Shown here in pieces: positions 10,174 through 28,737 of a stretch of 32,133 nucleotides of DNA (position 1 is its first letter; each line of letters starts with the position of its first letter). The notes beneath the pieces were generated by a model, which was not told the origin of the DNA, searched no databases, and saw only the letters and a program-made list of their open reading frames with translations. Where the stretch lies: positions 1 through 32,133 of the forward strand of contig CAIWRB010000022.1 in NCBI GenBank assembly GCA_903914955.1. Direction: 5' to 3'. The stretch is from an uncultured Chloroflexota bacterium (GTDB lineage: Bacteria > Chloroflexota > Anaerolineae > Anaerolineales > Villigracilaceae). The translations under genes and the position numbers were made by a program.

Positions 10174-10174
10174 A

Positions 10175-10207
10175 CCTCACAGTACTTCACCCGCCAGTGC
10201 TGTGAGG
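10175..10207. repeat. Inverted repeat (hairpin) between the activator gene and paaX
   Basis: CCTCACAGTAC (10175-10185) and GTGCTGTGAGG (10197-10207) form an 11-bp stem with one mismatch or G-T wobble and an 11-base loop. It begins 12 bases after the stop of the activator gene. In the direction of transcription it is followed by A-rich rather than T-rich sequence, so it is not a classical Rho-independent terminator. It could attenuate or protect the bcr message ahead of paaX, or serve as a protein-binding site. Confidence 0.45.
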
Positions 10208-10218
10208 TGGATATTCTG

Positions 10219-11040: not shown

Positions 11041-11852
11041 GCAACCTCCTTTGCGCTTGAGGGAGCGCGGCTTGAAACGATATGATCGAATGCAAACAAT
11101 GCGGCTCCGAGTGCGCCGATGTAATGCGAGTCGTCGCTGATATTTAATTTGAAACCTATCGCCTGCTCGAGTGCTTTGATCACCCCCGGGTTTTTCGTAA
11201 CACCGCCTGTGAAGGTCAATTCCTCTTCGATACCAACGCGGCGCAACAAGCCAACAGAGCGCGATGCAATGGAGAGATGCACGCCCCAAAGAATATCTTC
11301 GATCTTTTTGCCTTTGCCCAGCCACGAGAGAACTTCTGATTCAGCGAAGACTGTGCAAGTAGTGCTGATCTTTACGGGTCTTTCTGATTGCATGGCAACG
11401 GTGCCGAGTTCGCTGAGCGGGATATCCAGCGCGGCAGCAGCGGCTCCGAGGAAACGACCTGTTCCAGCGGCGCATTTATCGTTCATGCAGAAGTCCAGCA
11501 CTTCACCGTTTGGGCTGACGCGAATCGCTTTCGTATCCTGTCCGCCCATATCCAGCACGGTTTTTGTGTTGGGGAACATGTGCGAAGCGCCGCGCGCGTG
11601 ACAGGAGATTTCCGTCACTTGTGCATTTCCAAACGTCACGCGATACCTGCCGTAGCCTGTTCCGATCACATACTCAACTTCTTCTTCCTGGATGGCGCTG
11701 TTCCTGAGCGCTTCGTCGTACGCGTTCTCAGCCGCGAGGACGACGTTTGCGCCGGTATCGATCAGAGCCCGCCCGACGATTTCCCTTGCCTCGTTGATGA
11801 TGATCGCTTTTGTTTGCGTCGAACCTACATCTACACCTGCGGCGTATGCCAT
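11037..11852 (-). CDS. Benzoyl-CoA reductase ATPase/activator subunit, BcrD/BadG family
   Basis: 271-residue second ASKHA ATPase, paralogous to the neighbouring activator. Motifs fall at the same residue positions: [12 protein letters not shown] (6-17), [10 protein letters not shown] (101-110), cluster cysteines C127 ([11 protein letters not shown]) and C166 ([12 protein letters not shown]). A good GGAGG ribosome-binding site precedes ATG 11852. Having two different activator genes behind bcrC and bcrB is typical of heterotetrameric class I benzoyl-CoA reductase. The related 2-hydroxyacyl-CoA dehydratases usually have a single homodimeric activator, so the pair argues for a true ring reductase. 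Confidence 0.88.
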
Positions 11853-11879
11853 GGTAACCTCCAACAATAATCTTGTTTC

Positions 11880-11929
11880 GTAGTGGCGGCTTCAGTCGCT
11901 CGTATGCAAACGACTAAAATCGTTACTGC
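11880..11929. repeat. Imperfect inverted repeat between bcrB and the first activator gene
   Basis: Two 24-base arms (11880-11903 and 11906-11929) with a 2-base loop. In the plus-strand reading they pair throughout except for four C-A oppositions, with several G-T wobbles. All differences between arms are transitions, as in an ageing palindrome. It begins one base after the bcrB stop codon. It resembles a REP-like intergenic element and could stabilise the upstream bcrCB message or adjust subunit ratios. Confidence 0.5.
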
Positions 11930-11930
11930 G

Positions 11931-13229: not shown

Positions 13230-13251
13230 TTTTTCACCTTTACAAAATATT

Positions 13252-13269
13252 ATTGCGAGAAGTATTCTT
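13252..13269 (+). repeat. Interspersed ATTGCGAGGAG repeat, copy 3 (degenerate)
   Basis: ATTGCGAGAAGTATTCTT in the 57-base spacer between bcrC and bcrB. It matches 16 of 18 bases of the copy at 9191-9208; both mismatches are G/A transitions. No other signal is visible in this spacer. Confidence 0.45.
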
Positions 13270-13286
13270 TGCGGCTCGTGCTGATA

Positions 13287-14453
13287 TTAGCCAAACAAAA
13301 TATTTTCCGTGAACGTCTCAAGTTGGATTTCCATTTGATCGAAACTGGTCATGCTTTCCTCAAATTCGCTGACGAAGTAGGGGATCCCTTTTTCGTCCAG
13401 CGCTTTTGTGTAAGCCACCTGTTCTTCAAGACCAGGTTCGCACATCTTCGCGGCGGTGATGATGGCCGCCTCCGCGCGTGCGTTGGCGATCCTCTCCAAA
13501 AGCATTTTTTCCTTTGGTTTGCGCGAGTCGTGCTGGACGGGACTGTAACTTGATTTCTCCAGGTACGCTTCCGCCAAATTGAACAATGGATCGCCTTCGA
13601 GTGATACGTCTTCAAGGATCCATCTCAAGCCGATTAATAGATCATCGTCCACCACGTAACAGGATTGTGAGATGGTGCGGATCAGATCAAGTGGAGGCTG
13701 TTCGCAGAAGCCCCCCTCGAAGACCACCCGAATCTTATCGTGACGTTTGATGGGTCGAGTTTCGATCATCGGCATCACGGCTTTGAGTATTTCATTATGT
13801 TCCTCGCGCATGATCATCCCGCCAACGTTTGTTAATAAATAGGTTTCATAGGCCGAGATCAGCCAGGGTTGCTCGCGCTTAATTTCGTATAACTGGCGCA
13901 ACAGGCTTCTATTTTCATTAAAGATAGATAGGGAATTTTTTAGCGCTTCCTTCGTGACTTTGTTCCCCGTTATCTTTTCAATATCCGCCTGTACGCGCGC
14001 GTACTCTTCGCACAAGTAAGTCGCAGATGCGGCGGAGTTCGCATTTTGGGGCAGGTATAGGATCTGGCAGGGATAATCGAAATTACGTCCCCAGACCGCC
14101 GCGAGGTTGCGCGCCGCATCGCATATCGGATGAGTGATGAAAATATCCAATTCGACTTTCTTACTCATTACAAGTTCGAGCGAGGTCTTGAGGATCGAAC
14201 ACAGGTAGGAGCCAAAATGAGAATCTGAATGAGTACAATCGATGGCTGCACCGCGGATTTTCAGCGGCAGCATCCCCGCTGCGTGAGCGATCTCTTCTGG
14301 AAAGTAAACCTGAAAATGGCCGAGAACTTTCCCTCCCGCTTCGCGCCAACGCTTCACTGTTGGAAAGTCGGCGTCCTCCACTAATTCCCGACATTCCGCG
14401 ATAACCCCATCCAATGACTGACCCTGCCACTTATTGAATAATCGTAAATCCAT
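13287..14453 (-). CDS. bcrC: Benzoyl-CoA reductase catalytic subunit C
   Basis: 388-residue BcrC/HgdC-type subunit, partner of BcrB. Cluster-ligand candidates are C85 (SYLCSILK), C111 (HPICDAARN) and C338 ([11 protein letters not shown]). Strong family segments include [10 protein letters not shown] (57-66), [17 protein letters not shown] (176-192), EEHNEILK (217-224) and [12 protein letters not shown] (247-258). Length fits characterised BcrC (about 385). I chose ATG 14453 over the longer frame: GGAGG lies 6 bases upstream, and the longer start would fall in the promoter's 5' region. It is the first gene after the strong promoter at 14541-14568 and heads the order bcrC-bcrB-activator-activator. 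Confidence 0.92.
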
Positions 14454-14495
14454 GAAGAACCTCCAATCGTGAGGATATAAACGTCTGTGAATAAT

Positions 14496-14536
14496 ACATC
14501 TCACTATTGCGTGATAGCGTAAAAAAAGTGAGATGT
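14496..14536. promoter_or_regulatory. Palindrome at the bcr transcription start, candidate operator or 5' UTR hairpin
   Basis: Perfect 9-base arms ACATCTCAC (14496-14504) and GTGAGATGT (14528-14536) separated by 23 bases. On the minus strand the upstream arm begins 4 bases after the -10 hexamer, so it covers the predicted start site and the first transcribed bases. This position suits repressor binding (the PaaX-type protein encoded downstream is the obvious candidate) or a structured 5' leader about 85 bases long before bcrC. The loop carries a T7 run on the transcript strand. Confidence 0.6.
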
Positions 14537-14608: not shown

Positions 14609-16288
14609 TTAAGGTTTTGGTTTTTCATCCGCAATATCCACTCCATAATCCTTTTTGGCTCCAGCCGCAGTAACCTTTCCAGCGCGCACATCATTTAGCA
14701 GGGCATCCAGATCACGCTCGCGCGGGTCGCCGAATCCGCCTCCGCCGGCTGCGTCCATGGTCACCACATCTCCGGGTTGAAGTCTTGTCAAGCCGTAAGG
14801 ATTTCCCGGCTTTCCGTTGACTAGGAACTGCGCGTGCGCGCCGGGCTGACCCCCAAATAATCCCTGCGGGGCGAGTCGAAATCGCCCGGATTGGATTCCC
14901 AGATTCACCGGCGGAAGAGGCGCGGTCTCATCGTCAGGCACGCGGTAGACAATGCGACAACCCAGGCCTCCGCGTAGTTTTCCCGCGCCGCCCGAATCAG
15001 GCAATAGTTCGCGCATCTCCACGATCAGAGGGGTGTCGCTTTCCATAATTTCCGCTGGAGTATTGGCTCCGTTTGCCGGGAAGATATAACATTGCTCGCC
15101 GTCATTCAGGCTGCTGGCTCCCATACCTCCGCCGCGGATGATCGCCGAATGCCAGGAACTGCCATCGTTGCGGCGTCCGTAAAATATGTTCATCGTCGCG
15201 GGAGTTCCTCCGCTGCTGGCGATGACTCGATTCGGTAGAGCATCCGCCAGAGCGCGATAAATGATTTCCGTCATGAAGTGGCCGACCTGCATCCGTGCTG
15301 CTACCGCTGCCGGGAAACGGCAGTTGACCACACTTCCTTCAGGAGCCTTTAAAATTAAAGGTGAAACGCTGCCATGATTGTTGGGGATGTACGGGTCGAA
15401 GATACTTTTGATCGCCATGTGGACGTATGCGAAGGTGAAGTTGTATACCACGTTGCCGCCCCAATCTACCTGGGGCGAAGAACCCGCGAGATCTACAATA
15501 ATGTCGCTGCCGGTAATTTCCACAGTGGCTTTGATGACGATATCCGCGCGCCCTTCCATTTGTTCGATGACGCCTTCGGCGCGGTAGATGCCGTCTGGAA
15601 CTTGCTCGATGGCGGCGCGGACACTTTTTTCGCTGCGCGTGATGATCTCATCGGCGAGTTCATCCAACACGTCGAAGTTGTAATCTATCAGCATCTGGCG
15701 GATCTGCTCCGCGCAGACGTGGTTTGCCGCGATTTGCGAACGGAGGTCGCCGACGATATTTTCCGGCATGCGCACATTCCAGCGGATCATGTCCATCACC
15801 GCCTGATTCAACTCACCGCGCTCGTAGAGTTTTATCAGCGGAATGAAAAGCCCTTCTTCAAAAACATCGTGATTGTCGGAGGCCACTCGCCCGCCTATAT
15901 CCGAATGGTGCAAGACGCATGCGGTAAACGCCACCAAACGATCCTGGTGGAAAATCGGGCTAAACACACAGACGTCATTCAAATGTCCCGCCAATGCCCA
16001 TGGGTCGTTGGTGATAAAGACATCGCCTGCGTGGAAGGAATCCGCAGGGATTTGTTCCACAAGTTTCCTGATGCCCAGCGCCATTGCCCCAGATTGTCCC
16101 GGGGTTGCAAAAGAACCCTGCGCCAGTTCCCGCCCATGTTGATCGGTGAACATGCAGGTATAGTCGTGAGCGTCTCGAAGCACGCTGGAAAATGCCGTGC
16201 GGGCGACAGTGGCGTCGGCTTCGTCCACTATGGAAATCAGTCGCCGCCAGAGAATTTCAAGTGTGATAGGGTCAATTTTAGAGATCAT
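14609..16288 (-). CDS. hyuB: HyuB: N-methylhydantoinase B/acetone carboxylase alpha family subunit
   Basis: 559-residue HyuB-type subunit (hydantoinase_B domain nearly full length). Conserved segments: DPITLEILWRRL (residues 6-17), DYTCMFTD, GHLNDVCVFSPIF, a His-rich HHSDIGGR motif, and the C-terminal GGLGCRIVYR and GGGGFGDPRERD. With HyuA it forms an ATP-dependent enzyme that opens cyclic amides (5-oxoproline, hydantoins) or carboxylates ketones. In the anaerobic indoleacetate pathway a hydantoinase-like pair hydrolyses the oxindole lactam to (2-aminophenyl)succinate; I propose that role. ATG 16288 is preferred to the TTG at 16291 because CGGAG lies 6 bases upstream. It is the last gene of the long upstream operon, directly before the bcr promoter. 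Confidence 0.85.
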   Translation of the reverse strand: MISKIDPITLEILWRRLISIVDEADATVARTAFSSVLRDAHDYTCMFTDQHGRELAQGSFATPGQSGAMALGIRKLVEQIPADSFHAGDVFITNDPWALAGHLNDVCVFSPIFHQDRLVAFTACVLHHSDIGGRVASDNHDVFEEGLFIPLIKLYERGELNQAVMDMIRWNVRMPENIVGDLRSQIAANHVCAEQIRQMLIDYNFDVLDELADEIITRSEKSVRAAIEQVPDGIYRAEGVIEQMEGRADIVIKATVEITGSDIIVDLAGSSPQVDWGGNVVYNFTFAYVHMAIKSIFDPYIPNNHGSVSPLILKAPEGSVVNCRFPAAVAARMQVGHFMTEIIYRALADALPNRVIASSGGTPATMNIFYGRRNDGSSWHSAIIRGGGMGASSLNDGEQCYIFPANGANTPAEIMESDTPLIVEMRELLPDSGGAGKLRGGLGCRIVYRVPDDETAPLPPVNLGIQSGRFRLAPQGLFGGQPGAHAQFLVNGKPGNPYGLTRLQPGDVVTMDAAGGGGFGDPRERDLDALLNDVRAGKVTAAGAKKDYGVDIADEKPKP

Positions 16289-16291
16289 CAA

Positions 16292-18367
16292 TTACTCCGA
16301 TTGCATTTCGATCCACAAAAATCCATACTCATCTATCCGAACGGTGGCGTCTTCGCCGACGATCACGGTCGATTCGCGCTCCTCGATAATTGCCGGACCG
16401 GCGAATGTCGCGTCTGGGGATAGTTTATAGCGATCATAGACTTTGAAAGGAATAAAGTCATGCCTTTTTTCGGAGTACGCCATGCGTTCCCCTTTGAAAG
16501 CTTTGTTTAGACCGCCTCGCATTTTTAAGCGCGGCAGTTCCAGCGATTGGACTGGCAGGCTGGCGCGTACCCTAAAGTTGACAAATTCAACGGGAATCTC
16601 GGAATAGGTGCGCCCATAAAGATGTTCATAAGCTTGATCAAACTGACGGCGCAAATCTGACGGATCCAAATCTGCGAATGAACCATCAGGGAGAGGCAGG
16701 TTGGTTTCGTAGCCTTGTCCGATAAAGCGCGCTTCCACTGAGCGGAAAAAGGAGACTTTATCAGTCGCGCCTGCTGTTCGCAGGGTACGTTCGCCGTCGG
16801 CTTCCATGGCGCGGAACAAGGTTTCCACTTCGTCAAAGTTTGACCCGATCAATGGTGTTTTATGGCTGCGAACCAGGTCGAAAGCGCGGGGCGCGGTAAA
16901 GAATCCCAAAGCCGAGCCGACTCCCGCGTTGGGCGGGACGATCACTCTCGGAGCGCCGAGTTTGCGTGCTAGTCCATACGCGTGAACCGGTCCCGCGCCG
17001 CCAAAGGCTGCCACTGTTACCAGTTTTGGATTCCCGCCGCGTTCCGCGATGTGGGTCTTCGCCGCCGCCGCCATTGTCTCGTTGATCAAATCGTGAATGC
17101 CCCAGACTGCCTGAATGTAGGATACTCCCAGCGGTTCGGCGAGGCGTGTTTCGATAATTTTCCGCGCCGCGTCAAGATCAAGTTTCATGTCCCCGCCGAG
17201 GAAATATTTTGCGTCCAGATAGCCGAGCAGAAGATCCGCATCGGTGACTGTCGGCTCTGTACCGCCCAAGCCATAGCAGATGGGACCCGGATCGGCTCCC
17301 GCGCTGTCCGGTCCTACTTGCAGAGTCCCCAGACGACTCACTCTGGCAATGCTGCCGCCCCCCGCGCCAACCTCCATCAGATCCACCACTGGGACTTGGA
17401 TCATCAGTCCGCTGCCTTTCATAAAGCGCTGCACACGACCAACTTCAAAAGTGGGGACGACCCCGGCAACTCCATCCTGTATCAAACAGGATTTGGCGGT
17501 GGTGCCTCCCATATCAAAGCAGAACATTTCAGGCAGATCAAACAAGCGGCTATAGTATTGACCGGCGATCACAGCCGCTGTCGGTCCCGACTCAATGATC
17601 CGCACCGGGAATTCGGCAGCCGTCTCTACGGAGGTAATGCCGCCGCTGGACAACATGATGAATAATTGTCCGTTGAAACCGAGGGAATTTAATCGGTTGA
17701 AGAGTTTCTTAAGATAACTTTCGGTGAGCGGTTTAACGTACGCGTTGGTGACCGTCGTGCTGGTGCGTTCATACTCCCGTATTTGGGGCAGGACTTCGTA
17801 GGATATGGAAATGGAAATTTCCGGGAATTCTTTGGCGATGAGTTCTTTGAGCGCGAGTTCGTGCGCGGGATTCTCAAAGGAGTTGAGCAGGCAGACCGCG
17901 ATCGAAGTCACGCCTTCCCCAGCCAGTGTGCGAATCGTTTCCAAGGCTTGGTTTTCATCCAATGGTTTCAGAATATGACCATCGGTGCGGACCCGTTCAT
18001 CCACCTCCAAACGCAGCCAGCGCGGCACGAGTGGTTCGGGATATTCGGAAAAAACATCGTAAGGCGCATAGCGGAATTCCCGCCCAAGTTCCAGCACGTC
18101 GCGAAAACCTTTTGTGGTGATTAATCCTGTGCGGGCGCCTTTACGCTCGATGATGGCATTGATTACCAAAGTGGTGCCGTGGATCACTTCCTTCATTTTC
18201 AGTGGCAGATCGGGCACGCGCATGGTTAACGCCCGAATCCCTTCCTCGATGGCGTCGGATGGATCGCCCGGTGTGGTCAGGCATTTGTAGACCAGGATCT
18301 GTCCAGTTTCATCGTCGAGAAGTACGAAATCAGTAAAGGTTCCGCCAATATCACAGCCGAGACGCAT
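16292..18367 (-). CDS. hyuA: HyuA: N-methylhydantoinase A/oxoprolinase ATPase subunit
   Basis: 691-residue ATP-binding partner of HyuB. Visible: N-terminal phosphate motif GCDIGGTFTDFVLLD (4-18), EVIHGTTLVINAIIERKGA (60-78), a second nucleotide motif FDMGGTTAKSCLI near 285, GAGGGSIA, DSAGADPGP and FGGAGPVHAYGLA. These are the standard features of HyuA/acetone carboxylase beta-type proteins. ATP is used to phosphorylate the amide or enol oxygen and so activate the lactam. The gene is 14 bases from the mutase large subunit and 3 bases from the hyuB ATG. Alternatives are 5-oxoprolinase or an acetophenone carboxylase-like function. The mutase, CoA-transferase and Mo-hydroxylase neighbours favour the oxindole hydrolase role. 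Confidence 0.85.
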   Translation of the reverse strand: MRLGCDIGGTFTDFVLLDDETGQILVYKCLTTPGDPSDAIEEGIRALTMRVPDLPLKMKEVIHGTTLVINAIIERKGARTGLITTKGFRDVLELGREFRYAPYDVFSEYPEPLVPRWLRLEVDERVRTDGHILKPLDENQALETIRTLAGEGVTSIAVCLLNSFENPAHELALKELIAKEFPEISISISYEVLPQIREYERTSTTVTNAYVKPLTESYLKKLFNRLNSLGFNGQLFIMLSSGGITSVETAAEFPVRIIESGPTAAVIAGQYYSRLFDLPEMFCFDMGGTTAKSCLIQDGVAGVVPTFEVGRVQRFMKGSGLMIQVPVVDLMEVGAGGGSIARVSRLGTLQVGPDSAGADPGPICYGLGGTEPTVTDADLLLGYLDAKYFLGGDMKLDLDAARKIIETRLAEPLGVSYIQAVWGIHDLINETMAAAAKTHIAERGGNPKLVTVAAFGGAGPVHAYGLARKLGAPRVIVPPNAGVGSALGFFTAPRAFDLVRSHKTPLIGSNFDEVETLFRAMEADGERTLRTAGATDKVSFFRSVEARFIGQGYETNLPLPDGSFADLDPSDLRRQFDQAYEHLYGRTYSEIPVEFVNFRVRASLPVQSLELPRLKMRGGLNKAFKGERMAYSEKRHDFIPFKVYDRYKLSPDATFAGPAIIEERESTVIVGEDATVRIDEYGFLWIEMQSE

Positions 18368-18381: not shown

Positions 18382-19974
18382 TTATAGATTCACCGGCTCT
18401 GGAAATTTGCCGAATACGTCTTTCATCACGCCAGTAATTTCGCCCAAGGTTGCGTAGGCTCGAACGGCTTCCATTAGGGATGGCATGAGATTTTGATCGC
18501 TGCCGGCGGCGGCGCGAACCTTTTCCAGCGCAGCTTTGACGGCACTGGAGTCGCGGCGCGCGATCACTTCCGCTGTGCGGCGAATCGCATCTTCCGCTTG
18601 ATCGGGGTTATAGGTGTGTAAAGCCACATCCCGTTTTTCTTCTTCCATGCGATAACGGTTGACTCCTACCTTCGGGATGGAGCCGTCCTGAATGCCCTTT
18701 TCGTACGCAAAGGCCTGATGGGCCACTTCCCCTTGAACGATACCTTCACTGACCGCCTTCACGATCCCGCCCCACTCATCCTCCACGCGTTTCATCTCTG
18801 TCACAATGCGCGCTTCGATCTCGTTAGTCAGGCTTTCGACGTAGTACGAACCAGCCAGCGGATCCACGGTATCGCCAACGCCCATTTCTTCGATCAGCAT
18901 TTGCATGGTGCGCAATGAAATCAGCGCGGCTTTTTCGGTGGGGATGGTATAAGCTTCGTCGTAACTGCAGAGCGCCATGGTCTGAGTGCCGGAAAGCGCG
19001 GAGATGAGCGCATAATACGCGCCGCGAACGATATTGTTTTCTGGCTGTTCGATGGTCAAGCCGCCACCCCCGCCTCCGGCGATCATCTTCATCATCATGG
19101 TGTTTGGATTTTTCGCGCCGAATTCATCGCGGATGATGCGCGCCCACAAGCGCCGCGCCGCGCGGAATTTGGCGATCTGTTCGAAGAAGTTGCCGAAGAT
19201 GTCTAGGTTGAACGAGATCTGCCCCGCGAAATCGTCAACGCCTAATCCGCGCCCCAATCCACGTTTGATATATTCCTTGGCAATGGCATAGGCATACGCG
19301 ATCTCTTGTACGGGGTTGGCGCCTGATTCGCGAATGTGGTAGCCGCAAACCGAGACTGGATAGTATTTAGGCGCATGGCTGGCGCAGAATTCTATGGTAT
19401 CGCCAATCAAGCGGACAGCTGGCTCTACCGGAAAAATCCAAGCCCCACGTCCGATGTATTCTTTTAGAATATCGTTTTGGGCGGTGCCGCGCACTTCCGC
19501 CAATGGGATCCCCTGCTTTTCGGCGACCACGAAATACATTGCCATGATGGGAGCGGCTACAGCATTGATAGTGAGTGATACGCTGATCTGATCGAGGGGA
19601 ATTCCCGTGAAAGCGACTTCCATATCGGCCAGTGTGTCCACCGCCATCCCAACCCGCCCAACTTCTCCTTCTGCCAACGGATCGCTGGAATCCAATCCCA
19701 TTTGGGTGGGGAGATCGAATGCTACGTTGAGCGCGTTCTGCCCGTTTTCGATCAGGAATTTGAAACGCTGATTGGTTTCGTGTGGTGCGCCAAAACCCGC
19801 ATATTGGCGCATGGTGAAGGGGCGCTGCCGGTACATGTAAGGATGAATGCCGCGCGTGAAGGGAAATTCCCCCGGCTGTCCAATCTCGTTTTTGGGATCA
19901 ACATCTTCAGGGTTGTAAACCGGTTTGACTTGGATACCGGATTCCAGAACAACATCTCGGATTTTAGAACTCAT
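18382..19974 (-). CDS. B12-dependent acyl-CoA mutase, large (catalytic) subunit
   Basis: 530-residue TIM-barrel subunit of a methylmalonyl-CoA mutase-type enzyme, lacking the B12-binding domain (encoded by the next gene upstream). The substrate motif RPFTMRQYAG has Y58, and ILKEYIGRGAWIFP has R176. These match the Tyr/Arg pair that binds the free carboxylate in methylmalonyl-CoA mutase (Tyr89/Arg207 in the Propionibacterium enzyme). Isobutyryl-CoA mutase has Phe/Gln there, and 2-hydroxyisobutyryl-CoA mutase has Ile at the first position. So the substrate should be a dicarboxylic CoA ester. Given CaiB, an epimerase and a Glu-less dehydrogenase nearby, I infer it converts (2-aminophenyl)succinyl-CoA to (2-aminobenzyl)malonyl-CoA; ordinary methylmalonyl-CoA/succinyl-CoA interconversion is the alternative. 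Confidence 0.85.
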   Translation of the reverse strand: MSSKIRDVVLESGIQVKPVYNPEDVDPKNEIGQPGEFPFTRGIHPYMYRQRPFTMRQYAGFGAPHETNQRFKFLIENGQNALNVAFDLPTQMGLDSSDPLAEGEVGRVGMAVDTLADMEVAFTGIPLDQISVSLTINAVAAPIMAMYFVVAEKQGIPLAEVRGTAQNDILKEYIGRGAWIFPVEPAVRLIGDTIEFCASHAPKYYPVSVCGYHIRESGANPVQEIAYAYAIAKEYIKRGLGRGLGVDDFAGQISFNLDIFGNFFEQIAKFRAARRLWARIIRDEFGAKNPNTMMMKMIAGGGGGGLTIEQPENNIVRGAYYALISALSGTQTMALCSYDEAYTIPTEKAALISLRTMQMLIEEMGVGDTVDPLAGSYYVESLTNEIEARIVTEMKRVEDEWGGIVKAVSEGIVQGEVAHQAFAYEKGIQDGSIPKVGVNRYRMEEEKRDVALHTYNPDQAEDAIRRTAEVIARRDSSAVKAALEKVRAAAGSDQNLMPSLMEAVRAYATLGEITGVMKDVFGKFPEPVNL

Positions 19975-20021: not shown

Positions 20022-20423
20022 TTATTTATCCGCCATGCAGGTTTGGATAAAGGCAGTGATTTCATCGAAAGAACTGCCGGTTGGAAATACGCCCAAGACG
20101 CCAATCGCTTTCAGAGATGGAATATCTCTTTCGGGGATATTGCCGCCAATTAGAACGATCTTATCGTTCATGTCTGTATGTTTCAATTTAGCCATCAACT
20201 TCTCGGCAATGGGCAGGTGCGCGCCGGAAAGAATTGACAGACCGATAACATCCACATCTTCTTGAAGGGCGGTATCGAAGATCTGCTCAACTGTTTGGTG
20301 AAGTCCCGTGTAGATCACTTCAAAGCCGGCATTCCTCAAGGCTAAGGCGACCACTTTTGCACCTCGGTCGTGACCATCGAGTCCCGGCTTGGCGATGAGA
20401 ATCCGTATAGCTTTTGTTGTCAT
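20022..20423 (-). CDS. B12-binding small subunit of the acyl-CoA mutase
   Basis: 133-residue cobalamin-binding domain. The base-off/His-on signature is intact: KPGLDGHDRGAKV with D16-x-H18-x-x-G21, then GLSILSGAH and VLIGGNIP. This length is normal for a stand-alone subunit of a split mutase. The frame runs upstream to 20702, but that part is the antisense of the acyl-CoA dehydrogenase gene's 3' end; ATG 20423 has a GGAG ribosome-binding site and starts the domain. The mutase large subunit starts 47 bases downstream, and the dehydrogenase stop lies 55 bases upstream. No MeaB-type G-protein chaperone gene is in the window. Confidence 0.9.
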   Translation of the reverse strand: MTTKAIRILIAKPGLDGHDRGAKVVALALRNAGFEVIYTGLHQTVEQIFDTALQEDVDVIGLSILSGAHLPIAEKLMAKLKHTDMNDKIVLIGGNIPERDIPSLKAIGVLGVFPTGSSFDEITAFIQTCMADK

Positions 20424-20478: not shown

Positions 20479-21639
20479 TTACTTTTTACGATTTGCGGGC
20501 ACGCCCATTTCGCGGGCAATGTTGGTGCGCAGAATTTCTGATGTGCCGCCGCCATACAACAGGAAACGCGCGTCACGATAGTAGCGTTGTGCGTCATATT
20601 CCATGGCGAAGCCATAGCTGCCATAAATACGGGTACATTCATCTGCGATAAAATTGGCGGTCTCCGTCGCGAATAACTTTGCCATGGATGCCAATTTAAC
20701 ATCGCGGCGACCCGCGTCTATATCCCGCGCGGCGCGGCAGACCAGCGCGTCGGCAGCTTCGAGCTGCGTGCCCATTTCCGCTATTTTATGTGAGACCGCC
20801 TGAAACTCGGCGATCGGTTTTCCGAATTGCTGTCTTTCGTTGGAATATTTGATCGCAGAATCCAGCGCGGCTTGTCCCAACCCCAATGCCAGCGCGCCGG
20901 TCATGACACGGATCTGGCACAGGATCTCCCCTAAATTCTTGAAGCCGGTTCCCTGTTTGCCCAGCAAGTTTGCAGATGGAATTTGGACGTTATCCAAAAT
21001 CAATTCTGAAGTTTCAGAGGCACGCACGCCTAGCTTATTGATCTTGCGTCCCACGCTTACTCCTGGCATTCCCCTTTCGACCAGAAAAAAGTCGATTCCT
21101 TTGAATCCCGCCTCGGGGTCGGTTTTGGCGGCGACTGTAAAGAAATCCGCCATGGTCGCGGAGGTGATCCACATTTTCTGCCCAGTTATGGCCCAGCCAT
21201 TTTCAGTCGGTGTGGCGCGCGTTGTGATGCCGCCCAGGTCGGAGCCGAAATCCGGTTCTGTCATTGCGATGGTTCCGATTTTTTCGCCTCTCAGCGCTGG
21301 CTCAATCAACCGCTGCCGGTGATCGTCGGTGCCAAAGCGAAAGACGAGGTCGGTACCCATCAATGTCTGCATGGCAACCACAGCGCCCAACGAGAGAGAA
21401 CCGCGTGCCAACTCTTCCATCATTATGCAGTAAGTGAAAAAATCAGCGTCCATACCGCCCACGGCTTCGGGATAGCGCAAGCCGAAATAACCATTGACCG
21501 CGCAGCGTTGGAAAAGTTCACGCGGAAATTCGCCCTTCTCATCCAGTTCTTGCGCTGTGGGGATGACTTCCCGATCTACAAAGCTGCGAACAGAATTGCG
21601 GAAAAGTTTTTGTTCTTCAGTCTGTGAAAAATCTTTCAT
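20479..21639 (-). CDS. Acyl-CoA dehydrogenase lacking the canonical catalytic Glu, probable decarboxylating (IaaF-like)
   Basis: 386-residue FAD-dependent acyl-CoA dehydrogenase fold. FAD/substrate segments are present: GTIAMTEPDFGSD (about 120-132), WITSATMADFF, RQQFGKPIAEFQ, and RIYGSYGFAMEYDAQRYYRDAR near the C-terminus. At the usual base position, the Glu of YEGTxxI, the sequence is GGGTSEI (G364). The alternative base position in helix G (LDxER in isovaleryl-CoA dehydrogenase) is also not Glu (LCQIR). An enzyme that removes CO2 from C2 of a malonyl-type CoA ester needs no proton abstraction there. Benzylmalonyl-CoA dehydrogenase (IaaF) of Aromatoleum works this way, so I infer (2-aminobenzyl)malonyl-CoA to 2-aminocinnamoyl-CoA plus CO2. 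Start 21639 follows the CaiB stop by 5 bases. Confidence 0.85.
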   Translation of the reverse strand: MKDFSQTEEQKLFRNSVRSFVDREVIPTAQELDEKGEFPRELFQRCAVNGYFGLRYPEAVGGMDADFFTYCIMMEELARGSLSLGAVVAMQTLMGTDLVFRFGTDDHRQRLIEPALRGEKIGTIAMTEPDFGSDLGGITTRATPTENGWAITGQKMWITSATMADFFTVAAKTDPEAGFKGIDFFLVERGMPGVSVGRKINKLGVRASETSELILDNVQIPSANLLGKQGTGFKNLGEILCQIRVMTGALALGLGQAALDSAIKYSNERQQFGKPIAEFQAVSHKIAEMGTQLEAADALVCRAARDIDAGRRDVKLASMAKLFATETANFIADECTRIYGSYGFAMEYDAQRYYRDARFLLYGGGTSEILRTNIAREMGVPANRKK

Positions 21640-21644: not shown

Positions 21645-22847
21645 TTATAAGATTCCCTGTGATTGAAGGGCTGCCACATCGCAACCCAACGCGCCGAATA
21701 CAACTTCGTTATGCTCACCTAACCGTGGAGGAAATTCCAGTATCATCCCGCGCTCGAGGAGGTGGGCGGGGATGACCGGCGGCGGGGAAATGGCGATTTC
21801 GATTCCCGTTCGGGGATCGCGCGCTTTCACCAAATTATCAGCGATCAACGGGTCGGCGCACACTTCGCGGATGCGGTTAACTTTGGAAATGGGGACTCCA
21901 ACATTGTTGAAGTTATTGATTATTTGATGGGTGGATTGTCGTTTTATGATTACTGCCAGTTTCTGGTTTAGTTCCTTTGCTGCCTCAATACGCCCGGAAT
22001 TACGAATGTATTCGGCTTCAGCAAGGGTTTCAAATCCCGGCAGGCGCGTGATAGCTTCCCACTGCTTATCGGTGCCGACTGCCAGATACACAAAACTATC
22101 CGCAGTGGCAAATACCGATACCGGCGCGAAGAATTGATGGGTGTTCCCGTGGCGCGTGACAGGGATGTTGAAACTGTGCGAAAGCATGACGGGCGAGACC
22201 ATCCATGAGACAGCTGATTGGAACATGGAAATATCCAATCGGGCGCCCTCTCCGGTGACGGCGCGTTGATAAAGCGACTTCATCACCAAGCCGTAAGCAT
22301 GTTCGCCCGCGCCTAAGTCCACCATTGGCAAGCCAAAGACCGTCGGGTCGCCGTCAGGTTCACCGGTCAGTTCCATGAGACCGGCGCGCGCCTGTAGGAT
22401 TGGATCATAAGCCGCTTCGTTGCTCTGCGGACCAAATCCCGTGATCCCGACCCAGATCAGATCCGTCTTGATAGCGCTCAAAGTTTCGTAATCAATGCCG
22501 AGTTTTTTGTACGAACTGGGACGTTGGTTGGTGGCAAAAATATCAACCGGTAGTTCGCGAATTAGCTTATGTAATAATTCCTGCCCCGCTACAGTGCTCA
22601 TGTCGAGAGTGATGGATTGTTTTCCCAGATTATTGGGCAGGAAATAGGCGTTCATTCCCCGCTCGAATCCCGTCTCACTTTCTTGATTGGCTAACACTGG
22701 CAATCCCACCCACCGGTTAGGGTCGCCTCTTGGCGGGGACTCAACGCGAATGACTCGCGCTCCATCCATCGCCAACTTAAGTGTTAGGTAGGGCAGGGTG
22801 GTTGCTTGTTCTATGGAGAGGATGGTGAGAGATTTGAAAAGAGTCAT
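21645..22847 (-). CDS. CaiB/BaiF family (class III) CoA-transferase
   Basis: 400-residue family III CoA-transferase. Conserved features: N-terminal Rossmann-like LKLAMDGARVIRVESP (23-38), NLGKQSITLDM, FATNQRPSSYKKLGIDY, YDPILQARAGLMELTG, and the catalytic Asp177 in the MVDLGAG segment. Start is uncertain: a GTG at 22859 overlaps the epimerase stop as GTGA, while ATG 22847 has GAGTGA upstream and matches the family start better; I use the ATG. These enzymes move CoA between organic acids without free hydrolysis. In anaerobic auxin degradation a family III transferase (IaaL) activates phenylsuccinate-type acids, and an equivalent role, making (2-aminophenyl)succinyl-CoA, fits the neighbours here (inference). 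Confidence 0.86.
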   Translation of the reverse strand: MTLFKSLTILSIEQATTLPYLTLKLAMDGARVIRVESPPRGDPNRWVGLPVLANQESETGFERGMNAYFLPNNLGKQSITLDMSTVAGQELLHKLIRELPVDIFATNQRPSSYKKLGIDYETLSAIKTDLIWVGITGFGPQSNEAAYDPILQARAGLMELTGEPDGDPTVFGLPMVDLGAGEHAYGLVMKSLYQRAVTGEGARLDISMFQSAVSWMVSPVMLSHSFNIPVTRHGNTHQFFAPVSVFATADSFVYLAVGTDKQWEAITRLPGFETLAEAEYIRNSGRIEAAKELNQKLAVIIKRQSTHQIINNFNNVGVPISKVNRIREVCADPLIADNLVKARDPRTGIEIAISPPPVIPAHLLERGMILEFPPRLGEHNEVVFGALGCDVAALQSQGIL

Positions 22848-22855
22848 AAAACAAT

Positions 22856-23299
22856 TCACTCAGCGTGTTGGATGGGCTTTTTTTCTGCCAGATGGATCAG
22901 CACGCCAAAAGCGTCCTTGGGATGCACGAATGCCTCCCGCCAGACTTTGCCTTCGAATGTAACGCCTTCGCCATATGTATGACGATACGCAATGCGTCCA
23001 CCACGCTGCTCCAGTTCGGCAATCGCGGCGTCGAGATCGTCCACTTCAAAAGTGATGTGATGGACGCCGGGTCCGCCATTCTTTTTGAGGAATTTCGCCA
23101 CCGGGCTATCATCGCGGGTGGGCTCGAGCAATTCCATCTTGCTTTCACCGATTTCAAATGGGCGGTAGCGAATACCCATATCCTCGATCAACTCTTCCGG
23201 GGCAAACTCTGCTCCGAACCAAGTCTCAAAGAAATGTTGCGCCTCCTCCAGGTTGGGAACAGCGAGGGCAACGCGTTCGATTTTTTTTACGTAGGTCAT
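22856..23299 (-). CDS. VOC-fold epimerase, methylmalonyl-CoA epimerase-like with altered metal ligands
   Basis: 147-residue vicinal-oxygen-chelate protein most like methylmalonyl-CoA epimerase: MELLEPTRDDSPVAKFL (55-71), GVHHITFEVDDLDAAIAEL (78-96) and VHPKDAFGVLIHL. It would invert C2 of a malonyl-type CoA ester. The metal site differs from the standard enzyme: the first ligand His (HIGIAV) is Arg9 in RVALAV, and the last ligand Glu (VLIEL) is His136; His81 is kept. The ligand set is therefore rearranged and the usual substrate cannot be assumed. A stereospecific dehydrogenase following the mutase would need an epimerase, so (2-aminobenzyl)malonyl-CoA is a reasonable substrate. The ATG overlaps the aminotransferase stop, and the stop overlaps the CaiB GTG. 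Confidence 0.82.
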   Translation of the reverse strand: MTYVKKIERVALAVPNLEEAQHFFETWFGAEFAPEELIEDMGIRYRPFEIGESKMELLEPTRDDSPVAKFLKKNGGPGVHHITFEVDDLDAAIAELEQRGGRIAYRHTYGEGVTFEGKVWREAFVHPKDAFGVLIHLAEKKPIQHAE

Positions 23300-24462
23300 A
23301 CCCGCTCCATAAGTTTTAATTTTGACTCTACAGATGTTCCTGCTGGGATTCCAAGTTTTTCGCGTAGGATGATCTCCGTTCTGGCAATAAAGATGGCATT
23401 CTCCTCCGGCGTTCCCACCGTAATTCGCACCCCGTTTGGAATTCCAAATCCGGCGGTGTGGCGGACGATGATACCGCGCCGCAACAAAGCTATCTCCAAT
23501 TCCGCTGGCGGGATAGGCGGGTCGATCAAAAGAACCGAGTTCATGTGACTGTCCAGGCAGCTCAAGCCCAGCGCGCGCAGTGAGTCACGTAAAAATGCCC
23601 GCCCTGCCAGAATAGTCTTCCGGTTGTGTTCATGGAATTCATAGTCATCCATGCTTGCCATGGCCGCTGCCAGCACGATATCGGAAGTATGAAAAGGCAG
23701 TTGGGCATGCCGCACGTAATCCGCAAGCTCTATGGGCGCAATCAGATAACCGACTCGCAGGTTGGCAAGTCCGGAGGTTTTGGAAAAACTGCGTACGGCA
23801 ATGATGTTTTTCCCGGCGCGGATATAATCCAAACTGTCTGGGTAATCCTCCGATTCCACATAGCGGTTATAGGATTCATCCAATACGACGAGAACGTGAT
23901 CGGGAACTTTGGCGAGGAAACCATCCAACTGGGATTTAGTGATGATCGTTCCGGTAGGATTGTTGGGCGAACACAGGAAGACGATCCGCGTTTCATCGTC
24001 AATCTGCGCAAGCATTGCCGGAAGGTCGTGGCAGTAATCCGCTGTGTAAGGCACCTGGCGATTCTCTCCGCCGTACATGGTTACGAAAATATGATAGAGC
24101 GGAAAAGTTGCGGAACACATCACCGCGTTGCCACCCTCGAACAAAAAAGCCTGAGTGATCATCCTCAAAATATCTGAGCCGCCGTTACCGGTGACAAAAT
24201 TATCTTCCGTGAAACCGTCGCCGAAGCGTCCGGCAAGTTTTCGACGGAGGTCGCGTTCGCCTATGCCTGGATAACGATGGGCGTCTTTTAATGCACGCTG
24301 GATGGCTTCCAATGCCATCGGTGAAGGACCGTTGGGGCTTTCGTTGGACGCCATCTTGATCACGTCTTCCAAGCCAAATTCCTCTTTAACGGCTTCAATG
24401 GATTTGCCCCCAATGTATAGCGGAACCTTTAACAAGTTTTGATTAAACCGCATTCCGGTCAT
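23296..24462 (-). CDS. PLP-dependent aminotransferase, HisC-like (class I/II)
   Basis: 388-residue fold type I aminotransferase. PLP residues are clear: SPNNPTG (165-171, N168), VVLDESYNR with D195 and Y198, RSFSKTSGLANLRVGY with the Schiff-base K228, and R236. The best superficial match is histidinol-phosphate aminotransferase, but no other histidine gene is nearby and the HisC family includes aromatic aminotransferases. In this operon, with IorAB three to five genes upstream, transamination of tryptophan (or phenylalanine/tyrosine) to the arylpyruvate is the more economical reading (inference). It overlaps the molybdenum subunit stop (ATGA); a second in-frame ATG at 24453 is possible. Confidence 0.85.
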   Translation of the reverse strand: MTGMRFNQNLLKVPLYIGGKSIEAVKEEFGLEDVIKMASNESPNGPSPMALEAIQRALKDAHRYPGIGERDLRRKLAGRFGDGFTEDNFVTGNGGSDILRMITQAFLFEGGNAVMCSATFPLYHIFVTMYGGENRQVPYTADYCHDLPAMLAQIDDETRIVFLCSPNNPTGTIITKSQLDGFLAKVPDHVLVVLDESYNRYVESEDYPDSLDYIRAGKNIIAVRSFSKTSGLANLRVGYLIAPIELADYVRHAQLPFHTSDIVLAAAMASMDDYEFHEHNRKTILAGRAFLRDSLRALGLSCLDSHMNSVLLIDPPIPPAELEIALLRRGIIVRHTAGFGIPNGVRITVGTPEENAIFIARTEIILREKLGIPAGTSVESKLKLMERV

Positions 24463-26795
24463 TCAGTTGTCTCCTTTTGCATAATTGCCGCCAGCACCCG
24501 CTCCGGGGTCATGGGGAGTTGCGTCATCCGAATCCCAATGGCGTCGTAGATGGCGTTGGCGATCGCCGCGGCGGTGGGTGTGCCGCCCATCTCGCCCACG
24601 CCCTTTGCGCCAAACGGTCCTGTGGGATCGTCGGTTTCTACGATAATGGATTTGATCTCGGGCATATCAGCGGAAGTGAATAATCGGTAGTCAAGCAGAT
24701 CTGGGTTGAGTATTTTGCCGTCCTTGACGATTAATTCTTCCGTTAGCGCGTACCCGAGTCCCATCTGCGCGCCGCCTTCGATCTGACCTTCGACCGCCAT
24801 CGGGTTGATGGCGAACCCGACATCGTTCGCACAAACCAGCCGCAAGACTCGTACCTTGCCGGTTTCCGTATCCACTTCCACTTCAGCCATCTGTGCTCCG
24901 AATCCATAAGCGGCTGAGATGTTTCCCTTATATGTATCCTTATCTACAAGTTTGGTGGGCGGGTCGTACCAGCCTTCACCAAGGATAACTTTTCCGCCTT
25001 CTTTGAAATGACGGCTGCGAGCGGCTTGCGCGATCGTCAGAGAGCGTGCTGGGTCATTTTTGACCGTCACACTGCCATCATATGATTGCAATTCTTCCGG
25101 TTTGGCTTTTAATAGTTCCGCCGCGGTTTCGAAAATTTGATTGCGTGCATCCAACGCAGCTAGTTGAGCCGCATTACCGGCGATGAAGGTTGTCCGGCTG
25201 GCATGCACGCCAACGTCCCAGGGTTTTATATCGGTATCGCTGTTGAGGACCGTGATGTCTTCCATTTTCACGCCCAAAGTTTGCGCCACAATTTGAGCTA
25301 GTACGGTTTCAGAGCCCTGCCCGATCTCGGTGGAACCGGTGATCAGGGTAACGTGTCCGAAATCATCCACTTTGACCGTCGCGCCGCAACCATCGCTGCG
25401 ATAGATGCGCGCGCCGCCGCCAACATTTAGCGTAGCGGCAAAGCCAATTCCGCGCTTCAAGTGCGGTGGATCTTCTTCGATAAGCGGACGGCTGTTTGCC
25501 ATGTTTCGCGTAGGGTCGGAAACCGGAGCGCTTGAGGTGTGTTTGGCGCCCTGATCCGCATTTGCCGCGACAGTTTCCAGACATTCCTTCATGCCGCAGG
25601 ATGTGATGATCAATCCCTGTGGCGTCTCTGAATTGGGAACATTGGCATTTCGGACGCGGAACTCCACCGGGTCCATTTTCAAAGCCTCGGCTAAACGATC
25701 CATGATCGTCTCGACGAAGAAAGTTGATTGAGGATTGCCGTAACCGCGCATTGCACCGGTGATCAAATTATTGGTGTAAACGCAGTCGGCTTGGAAGCGA
25801 ACATGAGGAACTTGATACAACGAGGCGGTAGTTTCCATCATCACCAGCGGAGTCACCGACCCCCAGGAAATATACGCGCCGACATCCAAAACGCTGGAAA
25901 CATCGCGGAAGGTGAGCGTGCCGTCCGACTTCGCCCCGGCGCGAATGGTGACTTCCACGGGCTGGCGCGCGGGCCCGGCGGTAAATTCTTCGTGACGTGA
26001 AAACGCCAGGCGCACGGGCTGTCCCGCCTTGCGCGCCATTAACGCGGCGATAGGTTCATAGGGATAGATATCCAGTCCGCGCCCGAATGCGCCTCCAACG
26101 GCGGTTTGGATAATGCGGATCTGGCTGCCTGAGATCCCCAGCGCTTCGGAGAGATCACGTTGTAACAGAAATGGGATCTGAGTGGTGCTCCACAAGGTCA
26201 GGTGATCGCGGAGGTCAAATTGAGCGACGACAACGCTGGTTTCCATGCAAGCGTGGGTCACATAGGGAACCGTATAACTGGCTTCGACCACGACATCCGA
26301 CTCGCGCTCGCCCTGTCCCAAATCTCCATGCGTATAGCGATAACTGTGGAACATATTGGATTGAGATTTGCGCTCAGGGTGAATCAAAGGCGCGCCTTCC
26401 GCCAATGCCTCTTTAGGTGAAAAAATTGCAGGCAGCGGTTCGTATTCCACCGTGATGAGTTCGAGGGCTTCTTCGGCAATATCAGGATCGATCGCGACCA
26501 CTCCCGCGATTTCGTCACGCAAACTGCGGGCAATATCTTTGAAAGGTTTGTTGTCTTTGCCGTATCCAAAAAGATGGGATGGATTATCAGCTGAAGTAAG
26601 GACGCACTTCACACCGCGTAGATTTTTTGCACGCGATGTGTCAATATTCAATATCTTGGCGTGAGCATAGCGGGAATATAAAATTCTGCCATGCAACATC
26701 CCAGGTAGGCGGATGTCGTGACCATAAGTGGCTTTGCCAGTGGCTTTAGCGGATGCGTCCAGCTTGGGGACGCGTTGACCGATGATCTGATCCAT
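24459..26795 (-). CDS. Xanthine dehydrogenase family hydroxylase, molybdopterin-binding large subunit
   Basis: 778-residue molybdenum subunit of the xanthine oxidase family. Seen in order: GQRVPKLDASAKATGKATYGHDI at the N-terminus, YTVPYVTHACMET, the MCD-cofactor motif AVGGAFGRG, MRGYGNPQS, GSTEIGQGSET, and near the end GAKGVGEMGG with the expected catalytic E735 followed by AAAIANAIYDA. The motif set is complete. Start 26795 (MDQIIG) overlaps the stop of the [2Fe-2S] gene (TAATG); the longer frame is rejected. Such enzymes hydroxylate N-heteroaromatic rings or dehydroxylate aryl-CoA with water as oxygen source. I propose 2-hydroxylation of the indole ring of indoleacetate or its CoA ester to the oxindole. 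Confidence 0.88.
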   Translation of the reverse strand: MDQIIGQRVPKLDASAKATGKATYGHDIRLPGMLHGRILYSRYAHAKILNIDTSRAKNLRGVKCVLTSADNPSHLFGYGKDNKPFKDIARSLRDEIAGVVAIDPDIAEEALELITVEYEPLPAIFSPKEALAEGAPLIHPERKSQSNMFHSYRYTHGDLGQGERESDVVVEASYTVPYVTHACMETSVVVAQFDLRDHLTLWSTTQIPFLLQRDLSEALGISGSQIRIIQTAVGGAFGRGLDIYPYEPIAALMARKAGQPVRLAFSRHEEFTAGPARQPVEVTIRAGAKSDGTLTFRDVSSVLDVGAYISWGSVTPLVMMETTASLYQVPHVRFQADCVYTNNLITGAMRGYGNPQSTFFVETIMDRLAEALKMDPVEFRVRNANVPNSETPQGLIITSCGMKECLETVAANADQGAKHTSSAPVSDPTRNMANSRPLIEEDPPHLKRGIGFAATLNVGGGARIYRSDGCGATVKVDDFGHVTLITGSTEIGQGSETVLAQIVAQTLGVKMEDITVLNSDTDIKPWDVGVHASRTTFIAGNAAQLAALDARNQIFETAAELLKAKPEELQSYDGSVTVKNDPARSLTIAQAARSRHFKEGGKVILGEGWYDPPTKLVDKDTYKGNISAAYGFGAQMAEVEVDTETGKVRVLRLVCANDVGFAINPMAVEGQIEGGAQMGLGYALTEELIVKDGKILNPDLLDYRLFTSADMPEIKSIIVETDDPTGPFGAKGVGEMGGTPTAAAIANAIYDAIGIRMTQLPMTPERVLAAIMQKETTE

Positions 26796-27262
26796 TATGA
26801 GGCTTCCCTCGCGACGCTCATCACCGCTTCGACAATTTTGACATACCCAGTGCAGCGACACAGATTGCCGGAAAGCCACGCCCGCACTTCTGTTTCGGTC
26901 GGGTGAGGATTCTCTTTAAGCAAAGACAATGTGTTCATCACAAATCCTGGCGTGCAAAAGCCGCACTGAATTCCGCCTTTCTCGATCAAGGCGCTTTGAA
27001 TGGCGTGAAGTTTGCCGTCGGCCATGATTCCTTCCACGGTCAGCACTTCGGCGCCGTCCCAATCGGCCGCAAGCATCATACAGGAGGTTACCGGCAGTCC
27101 GTTTACCAGGACCGTGCATGCCCCGCAATCGCCAGAGTCACAGCCGCGGTGCGCGCCTAAGAGTCCCAAATCGTTGCGCAACACATCCAACAGGGTGCGG
27201 CGGGTATCAATATAAAGTTCGTGGGTATCGCCATTGACGTTGAGCGTGATCAGAGTTTTCAT
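26795..27262 (-). CDS. Xanthine dehydrogenase family hydroxylase, [2Fe-2S] small subunit
   Basis: 155-residue electron-transfer subunit with two [2Fe-2S] clusters. The plant-type cluster ligands are C41, C46, C49 and C61 ([16 protein letters not shown]...SC). The second cluster ligands are C100, C103, C135 and C137 ([16 protein letters not shown]). All eight are present and the length is standard (about 150-165). The gene is coupled by four-base overlap to the FAD subunit before it and by one base to the molybdenum subunit after it. Confidence 0.93.
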
Positions 27263-28110
27263 TGGATTGACTTAATGCCTCGTTTCAATAGAACTTCTAC
27301 CATGCGCCGCCGGTACCAAGCCGCACCGCGCACATCGTCAATCGGAGAACATTCCTGCCCAGCAGCTTTGGCGGCTTGGAGGATACGCTCTTCGGTGAGA
27401 TTCTGCCCCGCTAGGACATCTTCGCTTTGATGGGCCCGTAGCGGCACCGGCGCGACCGCGCCAAGAACCACTCTCGCCTCGCGGCACGCGAAGCGATCGC
27501 CCTCAAACTGAATTCGTACCGCAACGCCTACTATGGCGATATCCATATAAACCCGTGGGGAGTGTTTGAGGTAAGCAGTCTTTCCTACAGGCGGAGGCAG
27601 CGTAATTTCTTTAAGCAATTCTCCGGGCTGTAGGGCGGACTTGCCCGGACCCACGAAGAAATTTTCCAATGGTATTCGTCTCTCACCCGCTGAACTGATC
27701 AGGTTGACCGAAGCGCCCAATGCGATGAGGGGCGGGGCCAGATCTGCGGAGGGAGCGGCGTTACAAAGATTTCCTCCCACGGTGGCGAGACTGCGGATCT
27801 GTTCGGATGCCATAATGTGAGCTGTCTGTGCCAGAACCGGGTAATGTTCAAAGATGATTGGGGAGCGGGTGAGTTCTCGAAGTGTTGTCAAGGCCCCAAG
27901 TTTCAGTCCGTCAATTGCATTAAATGTGAGACAGTTTAGATTCGGCAATCGTTTTATATTGACGACTACATTCGATTTTCTGAGACCGGCTTTCATCTTG
28001 AGCAATAGGTCGGTGCCGCCGGCGATCACAGATGTTTTACCATTGTGTTCTGCCAGCAAAGATAAGGCTTCAGAAAGAGTAGTTGGAGTGAAATGGTTGA
28101 AGGGACGCAT
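27259..28110 (-). CDS. Xanthine dehydrogenase family hydroxylase, FAD-binding medium subunit
   Basis: 283-residue CoxM/FAD_binding_5-type subunit. FAD motifs [12 protein letters not shown] (28-39) and [19 protein letters not shown] (about 111-129) are intact, and the CO dehydrogenase flavoprotein C-terminal domain follows ([15 protein letters not shown]-like region). Length is ordinary. There is no roughly 40-residue insertion with four cysteines, the extra [4Fe-4S] site of 4-hydroxybenzoyl-CoA reductase subunit B, so that enzyme is unlikely. The order FAD, [2Fe-2S], Mo and the overlapping junctions show one three-subunit hydroxylase. It lies 5 bases after the iorB stop. Confidence 0.9.
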
Positions 28111-28115: not shown

Positions 28116-28673
28116 TTACGCTGAAAAAATTTTCATACCTGCCTGATAACCTGTTTCCAACGCCTTCAAATTTAATTCAGAGTTACGTGTTGAAGCCTTC
28201 TCAACTGTTGCGGTCATTTTTTCCATGGGAATACCTAAAGCGGGATGAGCTACGACAAAGCCTGCCATAATAATATTAGCGATGGAGGAGGAACCAATTT
28301 CAAACGCGAGACTGCTGGCAGGCAGGTTCATGACCTTGATGTTTAGCCTTTCGAGGTGAGGTTCCACTTCGGGGAGCAGTCCATTGTCGGCGTTGACAAA
28401 AACGATTCCCTCGCGCCGGAGCAAACCTAGATTCCTGACAGCTTCATTCGAGTCCAGAGCTATCATAAAGTCAGCAGTTCCCCTTTGAATGAGAGGAGCT
28501 TCATCGCCATTGATCTTCAAATACGAGATCACAGAGCCGCCGCGTTGGCTCATTCCGTGAGTTTCAGATACCATCACTGAATGCCCGAGCGCGACCGCAG
28601 TTTGAGCGAACAAGCGCGTTAGAAAAACAATACCCTGTCCGCCGTTACCGGTGATAATGAGTTTAATATCCAT
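28116..28673 (-). CDS. iorB: Indolepyruvate:ferredoxin oxidoreductase, beta subunit (copy 2)
   Basis: 185-residue IorB with the signatures ITGNGGQGIVFLTRL (7-21) and SETHGMSQRGGSVISYLKI (36-54). No Shine-Dalgarno-like sequence is visible before ATG 28673, and a 64-base AT-rich spacer separates it from iorA, unlike the coupled copy at 114-2443. It acts with IorA to oxidatively decarboxylate arylpyruvates to arylacetyl-CoA. Being at the head of the operon with the hydroxylase and aminotransferase, it would feed indoleacetyl-CoA into the pathway (inference). Confidence 0.88.
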   Translation of the reverse strand: MDIKLIITGNGGQGIVFLTRLFAQTAVALGHSVMVSETHGMSQRGGSVISYLKINGDEAPLIQRGTADFMIALDSNEAVRNLGLLRREGIVFVNADNGLLPEVEPHLERLNIKVMNLPASSLAFEIGSSSIANIIMAGFVVAHPALGIPMEKMTATVEKASTRNSELNLKALETGYQAGMKIFSA

Positions 28674-28737
28674 AAATGATTATTGGTTGATATTCGATAT
28701 GATTGCAGTTGTTGTTGATATAACGAACTATGGAATA

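Follow-up and report, generated by a model that had tools for sequence, protein, structure and literature searches.

The acyl-CoA dehydrogenase encoded at positions 20,479–21,639 of the reverse strand of the window, by which we mean the whole 32,133-nucleotide stretch of DNA analyzed here, is very probably (roughly 85%) an orthologue of benzylmalonyl-CoA dehydrogenase (IaaF): an FAD-dependent 2-carboxyacyl-CoA dehydrogenase, most likely acting on (2-aminobenzyl)malonyl-CoA, that would release CO2 and need no acid-base residue. The IaaF of Aromatoleum aromaticum EbN1 converts benzylmalonyl-CoA to cinnamoyl-CoA and neither forms nor uses phenylpropionyl-CoA, and the A. aromaticum enzyme carries FAD and is enantiospecific (PMC8360864). 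That paper (Schuhle et al.) presents GGG in place of YEG as the mark of a subclass and proposes, for A. aromaticum IaaF, loss of the C2 carboxy group instead of deprotonation, with the Gly providing a cavity. A word search of its main text returned neither helix nor mutagenesis; with no mutagenesis there, the mechanism rests on the reaction and on alignment. A 2024 paper makes the same point, that the motif Glu is missing from benzylmalonyl-CoA dehydrogenase (PMC11659651). The missing motif Glu is therefore already known and explained in print, and the window protein joins a known enzyme group for degradation of the plant hormone indoleacetate, while a base-free mechanism of the IaaF type is still an unproven proposal. 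New here are a second site (residue 243), natural variation at residue 242 and an epimerase-like neighboring gene. They strengthen the sequence support for the published mechanism, and the proposal built on one motif becomes sharper and testable: the clade has given up both known places for the base Glu.

Absence of Glu from both known base sites in the dehydrogenase and its clade

The open reading frame is complete, starts with ATG and encodes 386 amino acids with all three acyl-CoA dehydrogenase domains (N-terminal, middle and C-terminal) in Pfam. An AlphaFold2 model of the protein alone, without FAD or substrate, was built from a 46-sequence alignment (pLDDT 95.2, pTM 0.93) and matches solved acyl-CoA dehydrogenases along nearly its entire length, including the human short-chain enzyme (8sgs; Z 56.7, r.m.s.d. 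1.6 over 380 residues) and human isovaleryl-CoA dehydrogenase (IVD) (1ivh; Z 54.6, r.m.s.d. 1.8 over 380 residues). We represented EbN1 IaaF by an A. toluclasticum protein (L027) in the tree, the alignment and the neighborhood comparisons; compared with the published 22-base EbN1 iaaF primers, the ends of its gene differ by 5 and 4 bases, and the protein is 52% identical to the window protein. No NCBIfam model names either protein as IaaF, and the best model for both is acryloyl-CoA reductase (331 bits for the window protein and 307 for L027; cut-off 640).

Maximum-likelihood analysis of 94 rows puts 37 rows called IaaF on one side of a 100/100 branch, and the window protein and L027 share that branch. 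Counts for the clade refer to 45 rows, namely these 37 and eight relatives from the window genome's own order (L109–L116) that were added outside the tree by identity (70–95%). The 57 other dehydrogenases are not a random sample, being mostly the nearest relatives from a pattern-limited scan (among the matches listed) together with three from the window's own genome; the groups without the motif Glu that are named in PMC8360864 were not deliberately sampled among them. Before counting we dropped L048 (the same 376 residues as L017) as well as L005 and L006 (which represent a single fragment of an own-genome gene). Rows begin at the tblastn match and may lack their N-terminal ends, and clade row L028 contains at least one X (a stop or an ambiguous base). 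Selenocysteine was considered for the in-frame stops in L010, L011, L012, L115 and L116 and rejected, as each stop follows KEMGV, KDLGV or KELGL, a normal protein end. One own-genome dehydrogenase (L003) groups with Chloroflexota in the tree. Within the same order, 16 of 400 genomes searched have a match at an E value of 1e-105 or better, the window's own genome included.

Residues 357–370 of the window protein read ARFLLYGGGTSEIL and hold the motif LLYGGGTSEIL between the last two helices. The alignment places G364 where the catalytic Glu usually stands, so that G363-G364-G365 (codons at 20,545–20,553, reverse strand) stand as GGG instead of YEG, the motif described in PMC8360864. In IVD, according to PMC5798300, a Glu in helix G replaces the usual one, and 364 and 243 are therefore the two known Glu sites. 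Helix G spans residues 232–268 of the model (NLGEILCQIRVMTG), and its residues L240-C241-Q242-I243-R244 are encoded at 20,908–20,922 on the reverse strand. Three rows that combine LDYER with IGAGT (L053, L073 and L081), which we take to be IVD-like from this motif, define the column of the IVD Glu; in the window protein this column holds I243. The window protein thus resembles IVD in its fold and in a C-terminal motif without Glu but differs in having Ile243 where IVD uses its helix-G Glu (PMC5798300). The preliminary description had read GGGTSEI as replacing a YEGT-type motif and LCQIR as standing where IVD has LDxER, and had concluded that neither known site carries a catalytic Glu; the alignment bears this out and extends it to all 45 clade members.

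Among the matches listed, residues 363–365 are GGG in 43 of the 45 clade members and GAG in two, which makes residue 364 Gly in 43 and Ala in two, and residue 243 is Ile in all 45. By comparison, 53 of the 57 other dehydrogenases listed have Glu364, and the remaining four (L050, L053, L073 and L081) all have Glu243; every sampled dehydrogenase outside the clade keeps one base site and the clade members keep neither. The window's own genome yielded five other acyl-CoA dehydrogenase matches, and Glu is present in all four motifs that were read (L002, L003, L004 and C399:100-1002, with G000:C399:1356-2435 left out). Because the double absence is common to 45 of 45 clade members, it reflects neither chance nor a broken gene. 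The available part of PMC8360864 mentions the IVD-type Glu for IVD and does not discuss its absence from IaaF. Among the matches listed in our literature search, no title or abstract opening dealt with IaaF helix G or with this cluster in Chloroflexota.

Two exceptions concern the motif itself. The two GAG rows (L031 and L035) are Chloroflexota clade members, and the published GGG motif is therefore not strictly universal. Outside the clade, L050 combines IGGGT with LEAER, that is, GGG with a Glu of the IVD type, and GGG alone therefore does not identify IaaF.

Less probable alternatives: relocated bases and other reactions

If the clade does use a protein base, the likeliest candidate left is the acid at residue 242, immediately preceding the IVD position. 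Such a relocated base, a version of the IVD arrangement moved along helix G by one residue, is the strongest of the alternatives, albeit with only a small probability. In its favor, residue 242 is acidic in 34 of the 45 clade members (31 Glu and 3 Asp) but is Glu in just 4 of the 57 others (among the matches listed), and L027 has LAEIR in helix G with Glu at 242. Eleven clade members have no acid there: nine have Gln, the window protein among them, L020 has Val and L030 has Lys. Since both mutase genes and the CoA-transferase gene adjoin the dehydrogenase in all nine Gln242 members, residue 242 is probably not the base, and its acid would be dispensable if these members catalyze the same step, as their gene context suggests. 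Nor did we find any position at which all eleven carry an acid and <40% of the others do. As possible compensating acids we examined four positions (64, 174, 209 and 349) that passed a threshold of ≥85% acidic among the eleven (10 of 11 at each) and <40% among the others; they were discarded, and because none is a known base site these acids seem to reflect common descent within a single group. In a continuous helix, residue 242 would point about 100 degrees away from 243. Finally, residue 241 is acidic in 51 of the 57 other dehydrogenases and is Ala, Ser, Cys or Asn in 42 of the 45 clade members (among the matches listed); with an acid at 241 in most other dehydrogenases, the 242 acid may do the structural job of that residue, moved along by one.

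Still less probable is an ordinary acyl-CoA dehydrogenase whose substrate is non-carboxylated and whose base, Asp or another residue, is supplied from elsewhere, as in the cyclic-diene-forming dehydrogenases. Ring-dearomatizing genes are present in the window, and cyclohexane-1-carbonyl-CoA dehydrogenase is among the matched NCBIfam models, but the window protein scores far below the cut-offs of this model (NF043006; 259 bits, cut-off 650) and of the cyclohexanecarboxyl-CoA-related model TIGR03207 (183 bits, cut-off 575). The clade does have a specific acid at D333 (43 Asp and 2 Glu in 45 members, against an acid in 7% of the other rows, among the matches listed). In the model, however, D333 lies in a helix (residues 314–344) one turn before R337 and is predicted to be away from C2. 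R337 and the adjoining stretch presumably bind the FAD of the neighboring subunit. The preliminary description had offered an Asp base as its alternative, and this is not supported here: neither 364 nor 243 is Asp or Glu in any of the 45 members, the nearby residue 242 is not conserved and the tree places the protein within IaaF. Among the other groups without the motif Glu named in PMC8360864, cyclohexanecarboxyl-CoA-type dehydrogenases use a motif Asp (GDG) as base, whereas the window protein has Gly364.

Least probable of all is a non-redox enzyme of the same fold that only decarboxylates, comparable to 3-sulfinopropanoyl-CoA desulfinase, which likewise eliminates a leaving group from an acyl chain, has AGG for YEG (PMC8360864) and supplies the second-best model for L027 (281 bits): on the window protein its equivalog model (NF042439) scores 251 bits, far below the cut-off of 600, and the window protein sits in the tree with the Aromatoleum protein, the EbN1 enzyme being described in that paper as one that oxidizes and never forms phenylpropionyl-CoA.

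Under the preferred reading, that of an IaaF orthologue, the 2-carboxylate of the substrate would sit where other acyl-CoA dehydrogenases have the proton and the base, and would presumably face Gly364 and Ile243. CO2 would leave C2 to give an enolate as the hydride from C3 is transferred to N5 of FAD, and the product would be 2-aminocinnamoyl-CoA. Gly364 and Ile243, filling both Glu places, would create an apolar space that favors decarboxylation. We infer the substrate of the window protein and the role of Ile243 here, whereas the loss of the 2-carboxy group in place of proton abstraction, which the preliminary description also invoked, is the published proposal (PMC8360864). Glutaryl-CoA dehydrogenase similarly combines oxidation and CO2 loss in one active site but keeps the YEG Glu, where the window protein has Gly364, takes its proton from C2 and releases the γ-carboxy group (PMC8360864), and its helix-E Arg binds the carboxylate (PMC5798300); its model (NF045552) scores 278 bits on the window protein, below the cut-off of 470. 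In helix E, the clade-specific residues M90, Q91, M94 and G95 each occur in 45 of 45 members, and column 85 is Ala in 37 members and Gly in 8 (among the matches listed); L004, L068 and L089 have Arg at column 85 instead. Judged from the alignment, the clade's helix-E residues and Ala/Gly85 are consistent with a carboxylate held in apolar surroundings and not by a salt bridge. Arg55 is also invariant in the clade (45 of 45 among the matches listed). A reading of L004 as a glutaryl-CoA dehydrogenase, presumed from its motif, was dropped: its best NCBIfam model is FadE and all models are below cut-off.

Gene cluster in the window and at related loci

The dehydrogenase gene lies in a cluster whose genes fit an indoleacetate-type pathway around IaaF (genes given with coordinates are on the reverse strand). 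The iaa gene roles that go beyond PMC8360864 are presumed, as are the names IaaH and IaaG for the mutase subunits. An acyl-CoA mutase is encoded by a B12-binding subunit (IaaH-like; 20,022–20,423, start placed at an internal ATG; TIGR00640, 139 bits, above cut-off) and a large subunit (IaaG-like; 18,382–19,974; TIGR00641, 600 bits, above cut-off). A CaiB/BaiF-type CoA-transferase (IaaL-like; 21,645–22,859) matches NCBIfam models below cut-off only, the best being succinate--glutarate CoA-transferase (183 bits of 750). Hydantoinase-type subunits A (16,292–18,367) and B (14,609–16,291) together span 14,609–18,367, match caprolactamase and acetophenone carboxylase models below cut-off and are proposed as IaaCE, whose role we take to be opening of the oxindole ring. 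A three-subunit molybdenum hydroxylase of the xanthine dehydrogenase type (24,459–28,110) matches 4-hydroxybenzoyl-CoA reductase and xanthine dehydrogenase models, again below cut-off.

Profile models also identify, at 3,387–14,504, benzoyl-CoA-reductase-like subunits (below cut-off), two activases (above cut-off) and ring-hydrolysis genes (dearomatizing alcohol dehydrogenase and oxo-acyl hydratase models, below cut-off), perhaps a ring-reduction and hydrolysis set for 2-aminobenzoyl-CoA. A PaaX-type regulator was found with Pfam at 9,256–10,098. Two indolepyruvate:ferredoxin oxidoreductase pairs and a TrpB-like enzyme occupy the cluster ends (114–2,506, 28,116–30,627 and 30,732–32,114); one α-subunit is above and one just below cut-off, and both β-subunits are below. 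These pairs and the TrpB-like gene suggest that the pathway starts from tryptophan. The window also encodes an aminotransferase just above the hisC cut-off.

Compared with EbN1 IaaF, as represented by A. toluclasticum L027, the window protein shares the GGG motif, the lack of an IVD-type Glu, the 100/100 branch and a neighborhood of mutase, CoA-transferase and hydantoinase genes. The link to IaaF made in the preliminary description is thus supported by branch, motif and gene cluster, and the alignment with IaaF that it had called for, with L027 as stand-in, gave the shared GGG and no Glu of the IVD type. The two differ at residue 242 (Gln in the window protein, Glu in L027) and in the epimerase-like gene that adjoins the window protein, for which no match was found near L027. 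The window cluster adds the aminotransferase, the two indolepyruvate oxidoreductase pairs and the benzoyl-CoA-reductase-like set.

Across 25 named clade loci, the mutase is found in 19, CaiB in 19 and hydantoinase-type subunit A in 17, with at least one of the three in 23. The window mutase is most similar, among the named loci, to Anaerolineae mutases (75–77%); together with the grouping of L003, this makes Chloroflexota the probable phylum of the genome. Six loci without a nearby mutase have a mutase-like gene elsewhere in the genome (45–77% identity), although the best such gene for L030 (45%) may be an ordinary methylmalonyl-CoA mutase. A clade subgroup of three (L105, L106 and L107), at 57% identity, combines mutase and CoA-transferase genes with hydantoinase-type ones. 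As no molybdenum hydroxylase match occurs in the 19–20 kb covered at each of these loci, they may make oxindole another way or use a different substrate.

Epimerase-like neighbor and electron acceptor

A gene for a methylmalonyl-CoA-epimerase-like protein (22,856–23,299, reverse strand) overlaps the CoA-transferase gene. The protein falls slightly short of the epimerase model (TIGR03081, 109.5 bits; cut-off 114.95), and its closest solved chains are methylmalonyl-CoA epimerases. The gene adjoins IaaF in 12 of 19 loci from the searched genomes (78–98% identity), several of the others being short contigs, and has a weak match in 2 of the 25 named loci. At two places the protein departs from the solved epimerases, with Arg aligned to His and His aligned to Glu; we take those His and Glu positions to be metal ligands. 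This conserved neighbor hints at a way in which an enantiospecific dehydrogenase could be supplied with substrate. As a tentative extension, which we consider possible but doubtful as a whole, the IaaF clade would be a base-free branch in which both sites are apolar (Gly/Ala364 and the invariant Ile243) and C2 is activated by decarboxylation only, and the window lineage would have its own epimerase, derived from methylmalonyl-CoA epimerase with changed metal-ligand residues, to supply the enantiomer used by IaaF.

For the electron acceptor, no match to the ETF pair of the same genome was found within the window. The genome has one ETF-α match on another contig, preceded by an ETF-β-like ORF. 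A search of the genome for the ETF-quinone oxidoreductase domain (PF05187) gave no match, and one for the haem-copper oxidase family gave three; oxygen may therefore be available as acceptor for the window protein. Of the 25 named loci, five (L019–L023) have an ETF pair close to IaaF. In L020 (7,887–11,119), the GGG dehydrogenase directly follows the ETF pair, whose α-subunit opens, by reading, with a ferredoxin-like stretch. This 21-kb locus has no mutase, CoA-transferase or hydantoinase match, and the L020 genome carries a 57% identical mutase away from the dehydrogenase locus.
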